Shown here: piece after piece, positions 778 through 9,637 of the stretch
How positions within the stretch are numbered: the stretch's first letter is position 1
How the letters are laid out: every line of letters starts with the position of its first letter
From: a bacterium
GTDB lineage: Bacteria; Orphanbacterota; Orphanbacteria; Orphanbacterales; Orphanbacteraceae
Length of the DNA: 9,637 nt
NCBI GenBank assembly: GCA_025782575.1
Contig: JALGYY010000006.1
Span: 1 to 9,637 of the forward strand
Direction of reading: 5' to 3'
Position numbers and translations under genes: made by a program
Notes under the pieces: generated by a model
Told to the model about the DNA's origin: nothing
The model's database searches: none
What the model saw: the letters and a program-made list of their open reading frames with translations, nothing else

Positions 778-2737
778 GCCTTTCAAGACGGCGTTGCGCT
801 TCCCGGGAATCCGGGAAGCGCTGAACCACGGACCGATAGGTATCCTGTGCCCGGTCCGTTTTTCCTTGTCTTTCGTACACAAGGCCGAGGTCGAGCAGGA
901 ACGCCTGGTTTTCAGGAGCGATTCGCACGGCCCTTTTCAGCGCCCTGGCGGCACCGTCATTATCACTCTCTTCGGAGAGCAGCCGTCCGAGACTCCCCCA
1001 CGCTCTCCCATCTTTTCTCTCTCGCCGAAGTCCGTCCCGGAGTGACTCGATCGCCGCCCGGCGGTCTCCTGATCGAGCGAGCAAGTAGCCACGGTTAATC
1101 ATCACGTCTCCCCTCCACGGCTCGAATTCAAGCGCCTTACTGAGCACTCCGGCTCCCTCTTCATCCCGGTCTGTGCTACCGAGAATCGCCGCCAGATGAA
1201 TACGGGGGAGTACAGAGCGGGGTGCCTCTCGAATCGCCCGCCGGAGCTCCTGTTCCGCTCTGCCCGGATCGATTCTCTCGAGGACATCACCACCGCTCAG
1301 GACAGGAAAAGGAACGGTATACATGGGGAGATCTCGCCGATCGCACTCATCACGGGATATGTACAGCATGGATGTATCATCCCACCAGACGAGGGACATC
1401 TCGTTTCCGGGCAGGCGTGGCTCTGCCCATTTGTGATCGATAAGACAGTGGCCGATATCGTATTTCGCGATGATCTCCCGCCAGGTGTGGTTCGCAATAT
1501 AACGGAGCGTCGGTTCGTGGAGCTGGCTCCGCCCGTCCGTAAAAACGGGGCGCTCGCCTTGGAATCGAGAAATAAGATAGCCGCCGTAAATATTAGAGTT
1601 AAAAAGATTTCCCTCCGGGTCGAGGCGGGCGATTGCATCGGCGCCGGCCACAGGCGCGAGTTGCCGATTGATCCCGGTGCCGAACTGATATAGCCCCTGG
1701 GAGGCACCCGGGTCGAGTGCGCGGACCGAGTAAGCTATGAAGAAGAACGAGGCGACGGCAGCGATCACTCGGGGAGTCGTTCGGCCCCGACCTTTGGGTA
1801 CCTGGAACGCATCCGCCATGACAGGGAGCGCCAACACAACGAAGATCGGCATGAGCCGGACGGAACGGAACGTCACCAGAGCGACCGGTAGCAAAGTCAA
1901 GAGCACGACCGGGTCGCGGCGAGCCGCTCGAACGGCGAGAACCAGGGCCGCAATCAGGAAGATCATCTGCAGCGGATCGCGATTCCAGTCGATCGGCCTG
2001 AGCTCCTGGATCGCGAACTTTGCGAAATCTTGGACATGACCCAAGGCGAATGAAATATACTTTACATGAATCGGGTTCAGGAAAGTAACGAAGAGGGAGA
2101 TGGCGGTCCATTTAAGGAGCCGGTTACGAGCAGGCGCATCGAGGCCCTCGCGTGACGGCAATAAACGTGCGGCGATCGCCTCACCAACCCAGATCGACCC
2201 CATCACGAGAATGCCGAAGAGTGCGCCCGAATGAAACTGAACCCAGACCAGGAAGAGCGCCGGTAACCATCGCAGGCGATCAATTCTTCCCCTCCGATAG
2301 TCGTAGAGAACCGACCAGACAATGGCGACGCACATGAAGGTGACGAGGTCCGGCCGGATGACGAAACGAAATCGGGTGACAATAAGGCCCGCAAGAAGAA
2401 GGGCGAGCACGGAAAACGGGTCGGCACCGTTCCGGAACAGCGTCCTTCCCATGACGACAAAGAGGAGCGCCAGTAAGATCGCTTTGGCGATGATCGCGCC
2501 ACCCAGTCCGGCAGCGCTTACGATTGCGAAGCTGACGATCTCGAACAGCCATTGTGTGGGGGGATAGCTCCGGCCTTCTGTGGTATACGAAAACGGGTCG
2601 GCGAAGTGGAGGGCCCGATTGCTCAGCGTCTGCTCGCCGTTCGCGAGATGCCACCAGAAATCGGGCGCGTTAATGGCAAAGAAAGCGGATAGAAATACGA
2701 GAACGGCCACCACGCCGAGGATGATTGCGCGAATCAC
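758..2737 (-). CDS. Polytopic membrane protein (GT-C-like) with C-terminal TPR domain
   Basis: The 659-residue product has an N-terminal signal-anchor helix, then an extracytoplasmic loop with PDFWWHL (25-31) and DPFSYTTEGRSYPP (47-60). These resemble the first-loop acidic motif and conserved segment of a widespread family of GT-C-fold-like membrane proteins. Further hydrophobic segments run to about residue 340. A soluble part follows with NIYGGYLISRF (382-392) and RPVFTDGRSQL (396-406), also typical of this family. Residues about 490-650 contain roughly four TPR repeats, a protein-interaction scaffold. A likely role is lipid-linked sugar transfer or envelope glycan/protein assembly, but neither donor nor acceptor can be named. 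The start codon is GTG (2737-2735), overlapping the TGA of the Maf gene by 4 bases. There is no good Shine-Dalgarno site, so translation is probably coupled. Start choice is supported because the first helix begins at residue 3. Confidence 0.85.
   Translation of the reverse strand: MIRAIILGVVAVLVFLSAFFAINAPDFWWHLANGEQTLSNRALHFADPFSYTTEGRSYPPTQWLFEIVSFAIVSAAGLGGAIIAKAILLALLFVVMGRTLFRNGADPFSVLALLLAGLIVTRFRFVIRPDLVTFMCVAIVWSVLYDYRRGRIDRLRWLPALFLVWVQFHSGALFGILVMGSIWVGEAIAARLLPSREGLDAPARNRLLKWTAISLFVTFLNPIHVKYISFALGHVQDFAKFAIQELRPIDWNRDPLQMIFLIAALVLAVRAARRDPVVLLTLLPVALVTFRSVRLMPIFVVLALPVMADAFQVPKGRGRTTPRVIAAVASFFFIAYSVRALDPGASQGLYQFGTGINRQLAPVAGADAIARLDPEGNLFNSNIYGGYLISRFQGERPVFTDGRSQLHEPTLRYIANHTWREIIAKYDIGHCLIDHKWAEPRLPGNEMSLVWWDDTSMLYISRDECDRRDLPMYTVPFPVLSGGDVLERIDPGRAEQELRRAIREAPRSVLPRIHLAAILGSTDRDEEGAGVLSKALEFEPWRGDVMINRGYLLARSGDRRAAIESLRDGLRRERKDGRAWGSLGRLLSEESDNDGAARALKRAVRIAPENQAFLLDLGLVYERQGKTDRAQDTYRSVVQRFPDSREAQRRLERLSGREP
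828..863 (+). terminator. Probable rho-independent terminator of the secreted-protein gene
   Basis: A perfect 8-bp stem (ACGGACCG at 828-835 with CGGTCCGT at 852-859) encloses a 16-base loop that can form a small inner hairpin. It runs directly into five T residues (859-863). It starts 50 bases after the TAA at 775-777, on the correct strand. It lies antisense within the 3' part of the membrane/TPR gene. The large loop lowers confidence. Confidence 0.5.
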
Positions 2738-3318
2738 CGAAGCGTATCGACGCCGAAACGGCGGAGAAGTTCAGTTACTTGAATGAGCGGAAGCCCGACT
2801 TCGGCGGTCGGATCGGTTGTTTCGATCGATTGGAAGAGGGCGATACCGAGCCCCTCGGCTTTATAGGCACCCGCACAATTGAGAACATGTTCGCGCTTTA
2901 CGTAGCTCTCGATCTCCTGATCGCTCAGATCGCGCATGTGAATGCGTGTGACATCGACTCCTGTTTCGACGTGCTCGTCATCGATAATCTGCACGAGCGC
3001 GACCCCTGTTACGAGGCTGTGTGACTTGCCGGAAAGCAGTCTCAGCGACTCACGTGCCTTTTCTGCGGTTCCCGGTTTCTTGAGCGCCTGGCCGTCGATC
3101 TCGGGAATCTGGTCCGCACCGATCACAATGGCCCCCGGATATTGAGAGGCAAGCGATCGGGCTTTCCGGACGGCAAGATGAACCGCGCGCTCCTCGACGG
3201 GAAGATCATCCGCACCCTCTTCATCACAAAGGGGGGCAAGCGAACGGAACGGAATGCCAAGCCGGCGAAGCAACTCCTCCCGATAGGAAGACGTTGATGC
3301 GAGAATTATATCTTTCAT
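2734..3318 (-). CDS. maf: Maf/YceF-type nucleoside triphosphate pyrophosphatase
   Basis: This 194-residue protein has the usual Maf length and motifs. The N-terminal ASTSSYREELL (7-17) is the substrate/phosphate-binding signature. IGADQ (66-70) carries the catalytic acidic residue. CAGAYKAEGLG (148-158) contains the conserved Lys153 and Glu155, and GLPLI (175-179) is also conserved. The DQ rather than DT at 69-70 and the segment around YVKREH...CAG match E. coli YceF more than YhdE. YceF-type enzymes hydrolyse m7GTP to m7GMP and pyrophosphate, so this is best read as a cytoplasmic house-cleaning pyrophosphatase acting on methylated or modified nucleotides. The ATG at 3318 has a weak upstream AAGG. 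It lies 48 bases after the DHH gene and overlaps the following membrane/TPR gene by 4 bases. The specificity is inferred from sequence resemblance. Confidence 0.93.
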   Translation of the reverse strand: MKDIILASTSSYREELLRRLGIPFRSLAPLCDEEGADDLPVEERAVHLAVRKARSLASQYPGAIVIGADQIPEIDGQALKKPGTAEKARESLRLLSGKSHSLVTGVALVQIIDDEHVETGVDVTRIHMRDLSDQEIESYVKREHVLNCAGAYKAEGLGIALFQSIETTDPTAEVGLPLIQVTELLRRFGVDTLR

Positions 3319-5645: not shown

Positions 5646-7520
5646 CTATTCCCCCGCCTCCTCCCCATCGAAAAAGCGGCGGCACCAGAGTTCGATGCCC
5701 ATAAGCGTCCAGATGATACTGAAATAGTCATCGTTCCCGTTCATGTGGTCATTGACGATCCGCTTCACTTCGCCCGCATTCATGATTCCACGGTCGGCGA
5801 CCCGTTTGCTCAACAACGTCGAGGTCAGCTTCTGTTTCAAAGCGCCCCGAAGCCAGTCGGTTGTCACGATGGTCGCCCGCTCGTCCCGAAACCGGTACCG
5901 TCCGCCGGTCCAACGGCTCAGCCGAGACTTGAGCTGCCGGCGGCGCCAGGACCAGAAAGTCTGGAGGAGCGACGGATTCGCAGGCATGCCGGTCCCGTGG
6001 TGAGGGATGTGATCCAGATCGGGCGCCAGCCGATGAATGAGCTCGTGTACGCACCCCGAGTCCACATAATGACTGGGAGGAGCCTCGAACATGCAAGTGA
6101 CAAGATCGTAATCGCTGAGCGGCTGGCGCACCTCGACCTGGGTCCTCATGAAAGAGCCGCCGGTTCCGCTGAATCGTCTAAGGCGCTCTGTGATCGACGT
6201 GCGCCATGCCCTCTGAGGGGCGAACGCCGGAAAACCGCTCCCGAGCGACTCCCGATATCCCGGCTGGGGATCCTCTCGCATGGCATCGATGTAGGGATCG
6301 TGGAAGAGGCGCTCGGGGAGGAGCGACTTCACAATCGCCTCCCTCCTCCCGAATACGTGATGCCTCAGAAACTCCTCCTCCGAAGAGGGTGCCAGCACAT
6401 CGAATCCGGGCACCGGATACATATAGAATGAGAGGCTGCCGGTCGGTATTCCTTCGAGCACCACAGGAGAGTGTTTTCGGATCAACGGAAGCAGAGCGCC
6501 GATCTGGCAATGTCTTGGGGAAACCATACAATCGGTGAACCAGTTATAGGCGTCCAGATGTTCCAGAAAGAGTGCCGGCTTGATTTCCAACTCATGATGA
6601 CGGGTACCGAGAACACCGGCGACCATCCGGGCATACTTTAGATCACGACACCCTCTCTCGCCGAATGTATAGGTGTGAATCGATCTGTGTTCATGCGGGA
6701 TGCCGGCCATCATGATACGAGTATCCATGCCGCCGCTCAGCGTGGAGCCTGCCCCGGGCGGTTTGCGAACGGCGTGATCCATGGCGCGAGCGAGGAGCGG
6801 CTTGTATTCCTCCAACCATTCCCCGGTGGTGCGAACCGAAAAACTTTCGGGGAATGAGAGTCTCCAGTATTCCTGAATCTCAATCCGGCCATCCCGCCAT
6901 CGAAGAGCTGATGCCGGAGGAACCAGACTCACCCCTTCGATCGTCGTACGATTGCCGAACACATGCTGAAAGTGAATGAGATCGGCGATCGCCACCGGGT
7001 CGATAGTGCATCCGAACTCAGGAAAGGCGAGCACCCCTTTGACTTCGGGAAAGAATGCGAACCCACCCGGGATTGCCGCGTAGACGACCTGGCGGCTCCC
7101 CCACCTGTCGGTCACAATGACGAATTCACCCTTCCGCTCGTCGTGCGCTGCGAAGGCCCAGCTCCCGCTGATATCAGCAAATCCCTCAGGCCCTTCCAGC
7201 AGAAACAGCTTCAGAAAGAGTTCCGGCTCGCTCGTCATTTCTGAAATCGAAACGCCCTGCGCAATCAACCGGGCCTTGATCTGATCCGGATCATGCGCCT
7301 CACCATCGAGAACAAATCGGATTCCTGTTTTCTCGTCGACCAGAGGCTGTTCGACATCATGGAGCAATCCGAGATGGACGACTCCCAGGCCGCACTGATC
7401 TCCGGCCCGGTTATCAACTTTGCAATAGGATGTATGACAGAGGAGCCGGGCGATGTGATCGACCACCTGTTCGGCATTCCGGCCGGATCGACTGCTCATG
7501 AATCCGAAAATTCCCGCCAT
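5646..7520 (-). CDS. Asparagine-synthetase-like protein without glutaminase cysteine
   Basis: The 624-residue protein has the two-domain AsnB layout: an Ntn-type amidotransferase-like domain (about 1-215) and an ATP-pyrophosphatase synthetase domain (about 235-600). The synthetase domain has the PP-loop LSGGMDTR (261-268). A C-terminal part around EVRQPLSDYDLV resembles the family's conserved C-terminal helices. It begins MAGIFGF where true glutamine-dependent enzymes have Met-Cys-Gly-Ile, so the catalytic Cys2 is Ala and glutamine hydrolysis is not expected. The second loop, normally EGxGGDE, is EGIPTGS (356-362), losing the acidic residue. The protein may use ammonia or an amine, form an intramolecular amide as beta-lactam synthetase and lasso cyclase do, or be non-catalytic. 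The ATG at 7520 is chosen over an upstream in-frame ATG at 7613. The longer start would overlap the preceding gene, whereas 7520 begins at the family's first residue and has AGGGAG 4 bases upstream. It lies 32 bases after the glycosyltransferase-like gene. Confidence 0.85.
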   Translation of the reverse strand: MAGIFGFMSSRSGRNAEQVVDHIARLLCHTSYCKVDNRAGDQCGLGVVHLGLLHDVEQPLVDEKTGIRFVLDGEAHDPDQIKARLIAQGVSISEMTSEPELFLKLFLLEGPEGFADISGSWAFAAHDERKGEFVIVTDRWGSRQVVYAAIPGGFAFFPEVKGVLAFPEFGCTIDPVAIADLIHFQHVFGNRTTIEGVSLVPPASALRWRDGRIEIQEYWRLSFPESFSVRTTGEWLEEYKPLLARAMDHAVRKPPGAGSTLSGGMDTRIMMAGIPHEHRSIHTYTFGERGCRDLKYARMVAGVLGTRHHELEIKPALFLEHLDAYNWFTDCMVSPRHCQIGALLPLIRKHSPVVLEGIPTGSLSFYMYPVPGFDVLAPSSEEEFLRHHVFGRREAIVKSLLPERLFHDPYIDAMREDPQPGYRESLGSGFPAFAPQRAWRTSITERLRRFSGTGGSFMRTQVEVRQPLSDYDLVTCMFEAPPSHYVDSGCVHELIHRLAPDLDHIPHHGTGMPANPSLLQTFWSWRRRQLKSRLSRWTGGRYRFRDERATIVTTDWLRGALKQKLTSTLLSKRVADRGIMNAGEVKRIVNDHMNGNDDYFSIIWTLMGIELWCRRFFDGEEAGE

Positions 7521-7552: not shown

Positions 7553-8638
7553 TCAGCCCGTCGCGTGATCGAGAATCAGGCGTGCCGCTTTTGCCGCACC
7601 GCCGGTTACGCAAGTTATCGGCGGGGCAGCCGCTCGTTCCAGCTCATTCAGCGCGCCCGCCACGTCACCATGGTAAAGCTGCTCAATCGTAATCTTCGCC
7701 GCCCGCAGGTAGCGCTCGATACCCTCCACAAGATACGGATACTCGGGGAAATCAAGCCGCTCCGCATAGACCATGGGAGTCTGATTGGCGGCGCACTCCG
7801 ATACGATCCCGAATCCCGGTTTGGTGATCACAGCATCTACAGATGCGACCAGATCCGCAAAGGGAAAATCAGTCCTGCTGAGCGTCGCCACTCCCGGCGC
7901 CGATATCCGGAGCGGTTCCACTGCAAGGAAATGCCAATCCTCGGCCGAGGTGAGCCGGGCGGTCGCCGCCTCATCCCATTCAAGCGATGCAAATGACAGC
8001 AGACCGAGTCTTTTGTGCGGATCGAGACCGGTATGCTCGAGAATCTCGCCCTTCCGGTTTTCCCCCGGTTCGGTAACCACAGGCACATCGATACGATTGG
8101 GGAACGCGCTCATCGGTTCCGCGAACGGAAGCCTGATCAAAAGATCGGCTTTCCCGTAGGCACGTTCGAAGAGGCCGGCGTAGTCATCCCAGTCGCTCGT
8201 CCGGCCTTCGATCTCTCGATAGATGAAGTCCCACCCGAAGTTCCCCGCCGCGATGGCCGGGATGCCGAGAGCCCGGGCCGCCATGAGCGGTATTCCCGGG
8301 ATATCGCAAACAACAGCCGACGCTTCCCGCCTCCCGAGATACTCCGATTCCTGCTCCACCAGACCACCCCAGTCAGCGCTCAACACGTGGAGCGCTTCGC
8401 CGGTCGCCTGCAAGTCTGACTTCATCGAATCGACCTGCACCAGCCCGACGTCGAACGAATCGGGCCGGATCTCGACACGGCCTCCCGTCAGTCGTGACCG
8501 GATCAGACCATCGGGAAGGCTGGTTACCAGAGTGATCGGCGTGCCGGGCGAATGCTCGGTCAACGCGTTCACGATTGCACATGAACGAACCCCATGACCG
8601 TAACCGTGCGCCGTAATGTAGTAGATGATCGGATTCAT
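7553..8638 (-). CDS. GT-B glycosyltransferase-like protein, L-arabinokinase N-terminal type
   Basis: The 361-residue protein has an N-terminal Rossmann motif HGYGHGVRS (11-19; the G-x-G-H-x-x-R pattern of MurG/UGT-like GT-B folds). In the C-terminal half it has KPGFGIVSE (273-281), which resembles the nucleotide-sugar-binding segment of GT28/GT1 proteins. Segments DVGLVQVDS (63-71), NFGWDFIY (133-140) and LLIRLPFAEPMSAFP (166-180) closely resemble the N-terminal domain of plant-type L-arabinokinases. The GHMP/galactokinase domain that follows in those enzymes is absent here. There is no signal peptide or membrane segment. Activity is unproven: glycosyl transfer to a cytoplasmic or lipid acceptor is the simplest reading. 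The ATG at 8638 fits the family's N-terminus, although only a weak purine-rich AGAG lies about 12 bases upstream. It probably forms a unit with the asparagine-synthetase-like gene 32 bases downstream. Confidence 0.82.
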   Translation of the reverse strand: MNPIIYYITAHGYGHGVRSCAIVNALTEHSPGTPITLVTSLPDGLIRSRLTGGRVEIRPDSFDVGLVQVDSMKSDLQATGEALHVLSADWGGLVEQESEYLGRREASAVVCDIPGIPLMAARALGIPAIAAGNFGWDFIYREIEGRTSDWDDYAGLFERAYGKADLLIRLPFAEPMSAFPNRIDVPVVTEPGENRKGEILEHTGLDPHKRLGLLSFASLEWDEAATARLTSAEDWHFLAVEPLRISAPGVATLSRTDFPFADLVASVDAVITKPGFGIVSECAANQTPMVYAERLDFPEYPYLVEGIERYLRAAKITIEQLYHGDVAGALNELERAAAPPITCVTGGAAKAARLILDHATG

Positions 8639-8967: not shown

Positions 8968-9534
8968 TCAACGGGTTATGAGTGACATCTCTCGAGCCGC
9001 CAATCGGTTATGTTTGCCGCAGAGAAGGCGCAGATTCTTGAGGGAGTGCTCTCCGCCCAGGCAAAACGGCGTGATGTGATCGATCTGCAGGTGAGCGGTC
9101 GAGTCACACTGCATGCCGAGAGAACTGGTGTACGTACACCGCCCATTGTCGCGGGTGAACACCGCATCCCTCAGTTGGGCGGGAATGTGACGTGAGCGAC
9201 CGGTCGAAATCCGTGATCGCTCACCTGAAGAATTCCTCTCACTTGCCGACTTTGCCCCGCTCGCGGTTGCCGGTTTGTCCGGCGATTTGTTCTGCGACCT
9301 ACTCTGCTTCCTTGCTTCTCTCTTCTTCCGCCGTGCCTCTTTCCGCTCAGGATCGCGCTTCTCCAGCAGGTCCTTGATTGCTCTTCCCATAATCGCCTCC
9401 ACATTCCAGCTTCGGGAGCAGACCGTCTTCGCCCGCTCCAGATCCCGGCAGAACTCTTCGCTCACTGAGAACCGGATTTCATAGCGCTGCTCCTGCTCTT
9501 GTTGCTGATCCTGTCGGGAATCGCTACCAACGGA
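8968..9534 (-). pseudogene. HNH endonuclease, 3' remnant truncated by an insertion sequence
   Basis: About 188 codons remain. They begin with a Gln/Glu-rich stretch, then YEIRFSVSEEF and a helical segment, matching the 'sensor-like' region that precedes the nuclease domain in a large family of bacterial HNH proteins. A Lys/Arg/Ser/Gln-rich linker follows, then the HNH domain itself. In the domain RHIPAQLRDAVF leads into GRCTYT, then LQIDHITPF (catalytic His, codon 9078-9076), LKNLRLLC (Asn) and KHN (last His). Family members are normally about 350-400 residues with an N-terminal alpha-helical domain; that part is missing. Upstream of 9534 the frame continues only through the insertion sequence end (to an ATG at 9624), giving unrelated residues. 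The nuclease domain is intact, so a short product started inside the element (for example ATG at 9564) cannot be excluded. Confidence 0.7.
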
Positions 9535-9550
9535 GGCTGTCCAAAAAGTC
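9535..9550 (+). repeat. Putative terminal inverted repeat of the insertion sequence
   Basis: GGCTGTCCAAAAAGTC begins with GGCTGTCC followed by an A tract, a common style of insertion sequence terminus. The partner copy is not in the window, so repeat status is inferred. Confidence 0.45.
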
Positions 9551-9602
9551 TGATTCGCTGGCATATTTTCGTTATTCTGGGCAGAAGTGAAGGAGGGCCA
9601 GG

Positions 9603-9637
9603 ATGAGCAAGTTCCGCACGCCACGAGATCGGCACCA
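9603..9637 (+). CDS. Transposase, N-terminal fragment
   Basis: ATG at 9603 is preceded by AAGGAGG (9590-9596) with a 6-base spacer, the best ribosome binding site in the window. Eleven full codons read MSKFRTPRDRH before the edge. The pattern of an early aromatic, then Arg-rich residues, resembles the N-terminus of IS1182-like transposases, but eleven residues cannot settle the family. The position just inside a putative inverted repeat supports a transposase. Confidence 0.5.
   Translation, partial: MSKFRTPRDRH

Follow-up and report, generated by a model that had tools for sequence, protein, structure and literature searches.

A conserved Cys-less branch of the asparagine-synthetase superfamily with an altered second active-site loop

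The 624-residue protein encoded in the window, that is the whole 9,637-nucleotide stretch analysed here, which is an entire contig (C16) and ends where that contig ends, represents a conserved and selected, Cys-less branch of the asparagine-synthetase (AS) superfamily. Its membership in the superfamily is given by the presence of both domains, by the SGGxD PP-loop and by the fold. The gene is located on the minus strand with an ATG at 7520 and a stop codon ending at 5646, and a sequence resembling a ribosome binding site, AGGGAG, is found just upstream of the ATG. The positions of the gene and of its active-site elements are listed in Table 1.

The window protein matches PF00733 (Asn_synthase) with 78.2 bits (E 1.3e-21, gathering score 21) and GATase_7 with 44.7 bits (E 1.6e-11, gathering score 25), both above the threshold. 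With 128.3 bits the match to TIGR01536 (asn_synth_AEB, NCBIfam) is below the curated cut-off of 267.1, and the same holds for the lasso cyclase model NF033535, which covers the N-terminal half of the protein (E 1.4e-17) with 63.5 bits (cut-off 525). No characterised family that fits the protein was found in the Pfam, NCBIfam and PDB sequence searches, in line with the initial annotation, which had described it as a divergent member. An AlphaFold2 model built on an alignment of eleven sequences (pLDDT 83, pTM 0.87) predicts a complete AS fold with good confidence, and in structural alignment this fold spans residues 2–619. The top structural match is TsnB9 (7ylz) with Z 35.2 over 542 residues, and the model also aligns to E. 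coli AsnB (1ct9; Z 35.0, rmsd 3.3, 467 residues), to beta-lactam synthetase (Z 31.6) and to carbapenam synthetase, CarA (Z 28.8).

Table 1. Positions of the AS-like gene, its active-site elements and the neighbouring gene in the window.
Feature	Position	Strand	Basis
Cys-less asparagine-synthetase-like protein, 624 aa	5646..7520	-	ORF; Pfam; AlphaFold model
MAGIFGF, Ala in place of the N-terminal nucleophile Cys	7500..7520	-	Sequence
Retained PP-loop, residues 260–269, TLSGGMDTRI	6714..6743	-	Family alignment
Second loop, residues 355–362, LEGIPTGS	6435..6458	-	Alignments to AsnB/ASNS and canonical relatives
Probable catalytic-Lys site, residues 505–513, IPHHGTGMP	5982..6008	-	Alignment A3
Glycosyltransferase-like neighbour, upstream of the AS-like gene	7553..8638	-	Homologues match PF13528/TIGR00661

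The protein starts with M1-A2-G3-I4-F5-G6-F7, with Ala in place of the glutaminase nucleophile Cys2, and the first PP-loop reads T260-L-S-G-G-M-D266-T-R268, with the SGGMD at 262–266 intact. The second loop, L355-E-G-I-P-T-G-S362, aligns on LSGEGSDE in the profile alignments to AsnB (1ct9) and human ASNS, and the canonical relatives give the same placing; AsnB residues Glu348, Asp351 and Glu352 (human 364, 367 and 368) are thereby replaced by Ile358, Gly361 and Ser362, and all three acids are gone. The initial annotation had pointed out the replaced Cys2, the intact first loop and the altered second loop, and all of these stand, with a refinement for the Glu that remains in EGIPTGS. This residue, Glu356, aligns with Ser346 of AsnB (human Ser362), one step ahead of the G in SGEG, and as placed by these alignments it is not the catalytic Glu and stands at the ribose-binding Ser position. 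The catalytic Lys (AsnB Lys449, human Lys466) falls at Gly509 when the K-x-G-x-P motif is followed in alignment A3, and was thus probably lost, a grading chosen because the global profile alignment gaps this stretch and leaves the Lys position ambiguous. A Lys is present at this place in five of the eight family members, among them the paralogue on contig C45 of the same genome; the remaining three, the window protein and the two relatives closest to it, have Gly, Gly and Arg.

Judging from the missing residues, it is close to certain that the window protein has neither glutaminase activity nor asparagine synthesis. In human ASNS the acids of the second loop mainly form the aspartate-binding pocket, and the mutants E364A, E364Q and D367A are inactive (PMC6748925). 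The loss of these acids therefore speaks for a different substrate at least as much as for an absence of catalysis. It is possible that the window protein has no catalysis at all; against this stand the above-average conservation of the PP-loop, of Asp293 and of a number of family motifs, and the role of the lost acids in ASNS, where they are ligands of the substrate.

A scan of the genome contigs with the single protein gave no match, and a scan with a family profile then gave ten loci. Full-length members number eight with the window protein included and come from four of the seven genomes examined for the phylum, and the others are 38–44% identical to the window protein; one of them is a paralogue on contig C45 of its own genome. 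The remaining AS homologues of that genome are a canonical AsnB on contig C24, with MCGI and GGDGGDE, and a short weak match. All eight members have Ala or Pro instead of Cys2 and S-[GSA]-G-x-D-[ST]-R in loop 1, where S262, G264, D266 and R268 are invariant, and in all of them the second loop is free of acids after L-E-G. Five of the ten PP-loop positions are invariant in these eight sequences, compared to 100 of 624 in the whole protein (p 0.012). Conservation is also unusually high at Asp293 and in the motifs EVRQP and W.xDxM...H.xI, and Glu356 is invariant. The second-loop residues after G357 vary. As these alterations recur in seven homologues, from this genome and from related ones, the altered sites of the window protein are not due to chance or to sequencing errors. 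Two ortholog pairs, both from other subfamilies than that of the window protein, have a dN/dS of 0.16–0.19 (NG86) or 0.09–0.10 (YN00), indicating that the family is under selection; it is maintained and is not a decaying pseudogene.

In a maximum-likelihood tree of 32 proteins the eight members constitute one 100/100 clade, nested in a clade of 14 that is also 100/100, and the 18 other homologues, nearly all of which carry the Cys, fall outside. With up to three candidates scored per genome, this wider clade has at least 14 members. The six further ones (L044, L053, L054, L055, L057 and L089) all have Pro or another residue instead of the N-terminal Cys, and DSR or DTR after the PP-loop. Five of them keep an Asp or Glu in the second loop (GFAGD, GHAGD, GASGD, GHGGE and GLYGE), and that of L055, GHGGG, is acid-free. 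As aligned, the second loops of the wider clade form a graded series, with the family of the window protein at the acid-free end. Asp72, Asp266, Arg268, Asp293 and Arg465 are invariant in all 13 aligned members. Three of the six further members are found in glycan gene clusters and adjoin glycosyltransferase genes: L055 lies behind one, and L053 and L057 have a flippase next to them and a FemAB/GNAT protein as well as glycosyltransferases in the vicinity. The substrate of the wider clade may be a glycan precursor.

At three loci of the wider clade (L080, L082 and L083), Cys-less AS homologues of the SGGLDSR type lie within glycan clusters. In two of these cases a flippase is immediately adjacent and a FemAB-like gene is close by, a context possibly reflecting amide formation of an undescribed kind during the assembly of surface polysaccharides. 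A literature search on a Cys-less AS clade, on AS pseudoenzymes and on AS-like amidation in glycan clusters gave nothing relevant, which is no proof of absence.

The glycosyltransferase-like gene is separated from the AS-like gene by a 32-base gap. Its protein has no Pfam match of its own, its homologues match PF13528 and TIGR00661, and single-sequence folding gave a pLDDT of 31. Homologues are found in roughly a tenth of the genomes sampled and in none of the six further genomes of the phylum. The family loci were inspected for a conserved operon partner, and none was found; the neighbours are an amidase (on two related contigs), a methyltransferase, an acyl-CoA ligase with a DUF1028 protein, a convergent ORF without an assigned family and, in the window, the glycosyltransferase-like gene. 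Since the neighbour lacks homologues in the rest of the phylum and the neighbours elsewhere differ, the link to the glycosyltransferase is not a family trait. The interpretation in the initial annotation thus survives as far as the two altered signature sites and the want of a fitting characterised family are concerned, and both of the options it named, an amide-forming step not yet described or a non-catalytic protein, are among the readings weighed below; the proposed association with this gene is not supported.

In two genomes (L028, 6041–9374, and L029, 143–3493) the AS-like gene starts within about 35 bases after an amidase gene; the pair is conserved in that subfamily, and L028 has a carbamoyltransferase upstream. 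Elsewhere in the window, the minus strand at 8968–9624 encodes a protein resembling HNH endonucleases, which weakly matches IscB and Cas9d models in their HNH region and is probably an ordinary HNH protein. A 659-residue protein, hydrophobic in its N-terminal half and with TPR repeats at the C-terminus, is encoded at 758–2737, also on the minus strand, and its gene overlaps a Maf-like gene (2734–3318) by four bases.

The reading we put forward, with a probability that stops a little short of even, is that the window protein is an ATP-dependent, glutamine-independent ligase that still binds ATP, and that the carboxylate it activates is not aspartate. The PP-loop would still bind ATP or pyrophosphate, and the invariant Glu356 would take the place of the ribose contact, Ser362 in human ASNS. 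The carboxylate would be activated as an acyl-AMP and joined to an amine from a source other than the glutaminase site, a mode of work that might resemble that of beta-lactam synthetase or lasso cyclase without membership in either group. The AS fold, with its Z scores to 7ylz, 1ct9 and beta-lactam synthetase, the invariant PP-loop, the residues that are invariant throughout the clade, the low dN/dS and the glycan neighbours of the distant members all favour a ligase. Against it, the Asp351 equivalent of beta-lactam synthetase is a magnesium ligand. The inactivity of the human E364A, E364Q and D367A mutants (PMC6748925), the Gly509 probably at the Lys place and the lack of a conserved partner gene also count against a ligase. 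That the family forms acyl-adenylates as an active ligase without a second-loop acid, and that the wider clade comprises amide-forming enzymes of bacterial surface glycans, appears unlikely when taken together; to our knowledge, the metal and substrate arrangement implied by acyl-adenylate formation without such an acid is known nowhere else in the AS superfamily.

The same losses could, as the main rival reading has it, be those of a pseudoenzyme, a non-catalytic protein of AS fold in which binding of nucleotide or phosphate is kept for stability or sensing and which serves as a scaffold or regulator. One protein lacks the glutaminase Cys, all three acids of loop 2 and probably the catalytic Lys, the succession from Lys in five members to Gly, Gly and Arg in the other three, which are the window protein and the two closest to it, looks like stepwise decay, and the loop-2 residues beyond G357 vary; we find this explanation quite conceivable, though on balance somewhat improbable, as conservation is unusually high in the PP-loop, at Asp293 and in the motifs EVRQP and W.xDxM...H.xI, and related genomes retain several paralogous subfamilies that are strongly constrained. 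At the other extreme, an ordinary asparagine synthetase or amidotransferase with misaligned active-site residues would account for the weak TIGR01536 match, but 128 bits is far from the cut-off of 267, none of the eight members has a Cys at position 2 or an acid in loop 2, and the genome already has its canonical AsnB on contig C24, which leaves this idea with hardly any credit.

On contig C13 of the same genome, genes for a PqqD-like protein, an HprK-related kinase, a lasso-B2-like transglutaminase, an NTP_transf_5 nucleotidyltransferase and an ABC transporter are arranged in a row (L085, 4608–9420), a lasso-type RiPP gene set without an AS-like cyclase alongside. The window protein might act in trans as the cyclase of this set, and the few AS homologues of the genome offer little choice. 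The B2-like gene is found in all seven genomes of the phylum while the AS family is found in four, the NF033535 score is 63.5 against the 525 bits required, and lasso cyclases keep the loop-2 acids, making such a role very improbable.

Should the protein be catalytic, carboxylate activation on the AS scaffold would be feasible in the absence of the acidic loop on which human asparagine synthetase depends, and a new amide-forming clade would be indicated. If the protein is non-catalytic, it would be a clear example of a pseudoenzyme under selection in the superfamily, of which the literature search found no other. Either way, caution is needed against annotating these genes as asparagine synthetase.

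Compared to AsnB and human ASNS, the window protein has the same two-domain fold, the SGGxD PP-loop, the E-x-R-x-P motif and the same order of elements, but it differs by the absence of the N-terminal Cys and of Glu348, Asp351 and Glu352, by Glu in place of Ser346 and by the probable absence of the Lys. Beta-lactam synthetase and CarA share the AS fold and match the window protein weakly by sequence; both are without glutaminase activity, and in both the Asp of loop 2 and the catalytic Lys are retained. Beta-lactam synthetase is characterised by a Tyr/Glu catalytic dyad, by Lys443 and by closure of a beta-lactam. Lasso cyclases of the McjC type are also Cys-less AS homologues, with retained acids in loop 2. 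Among the Pfam matches of the window genes, which extend to the end of the contig, there is no PqqD-like or B2 gene, and the sole B2-like gene of the genome is on another contig than the window protein. The hydroxyamidotransferase TsnB9 (7ylz) is the best PDB match by both structure and sequence, but has the N-terminus MCGV and SGEAADE in loop 2. The members of the unnamed SGGxD[ST]R clade resemble the family of the window protein in being Cys-less, in having DSR or DTR after the PP-loop and in grouping with it in one 100/100 clade.
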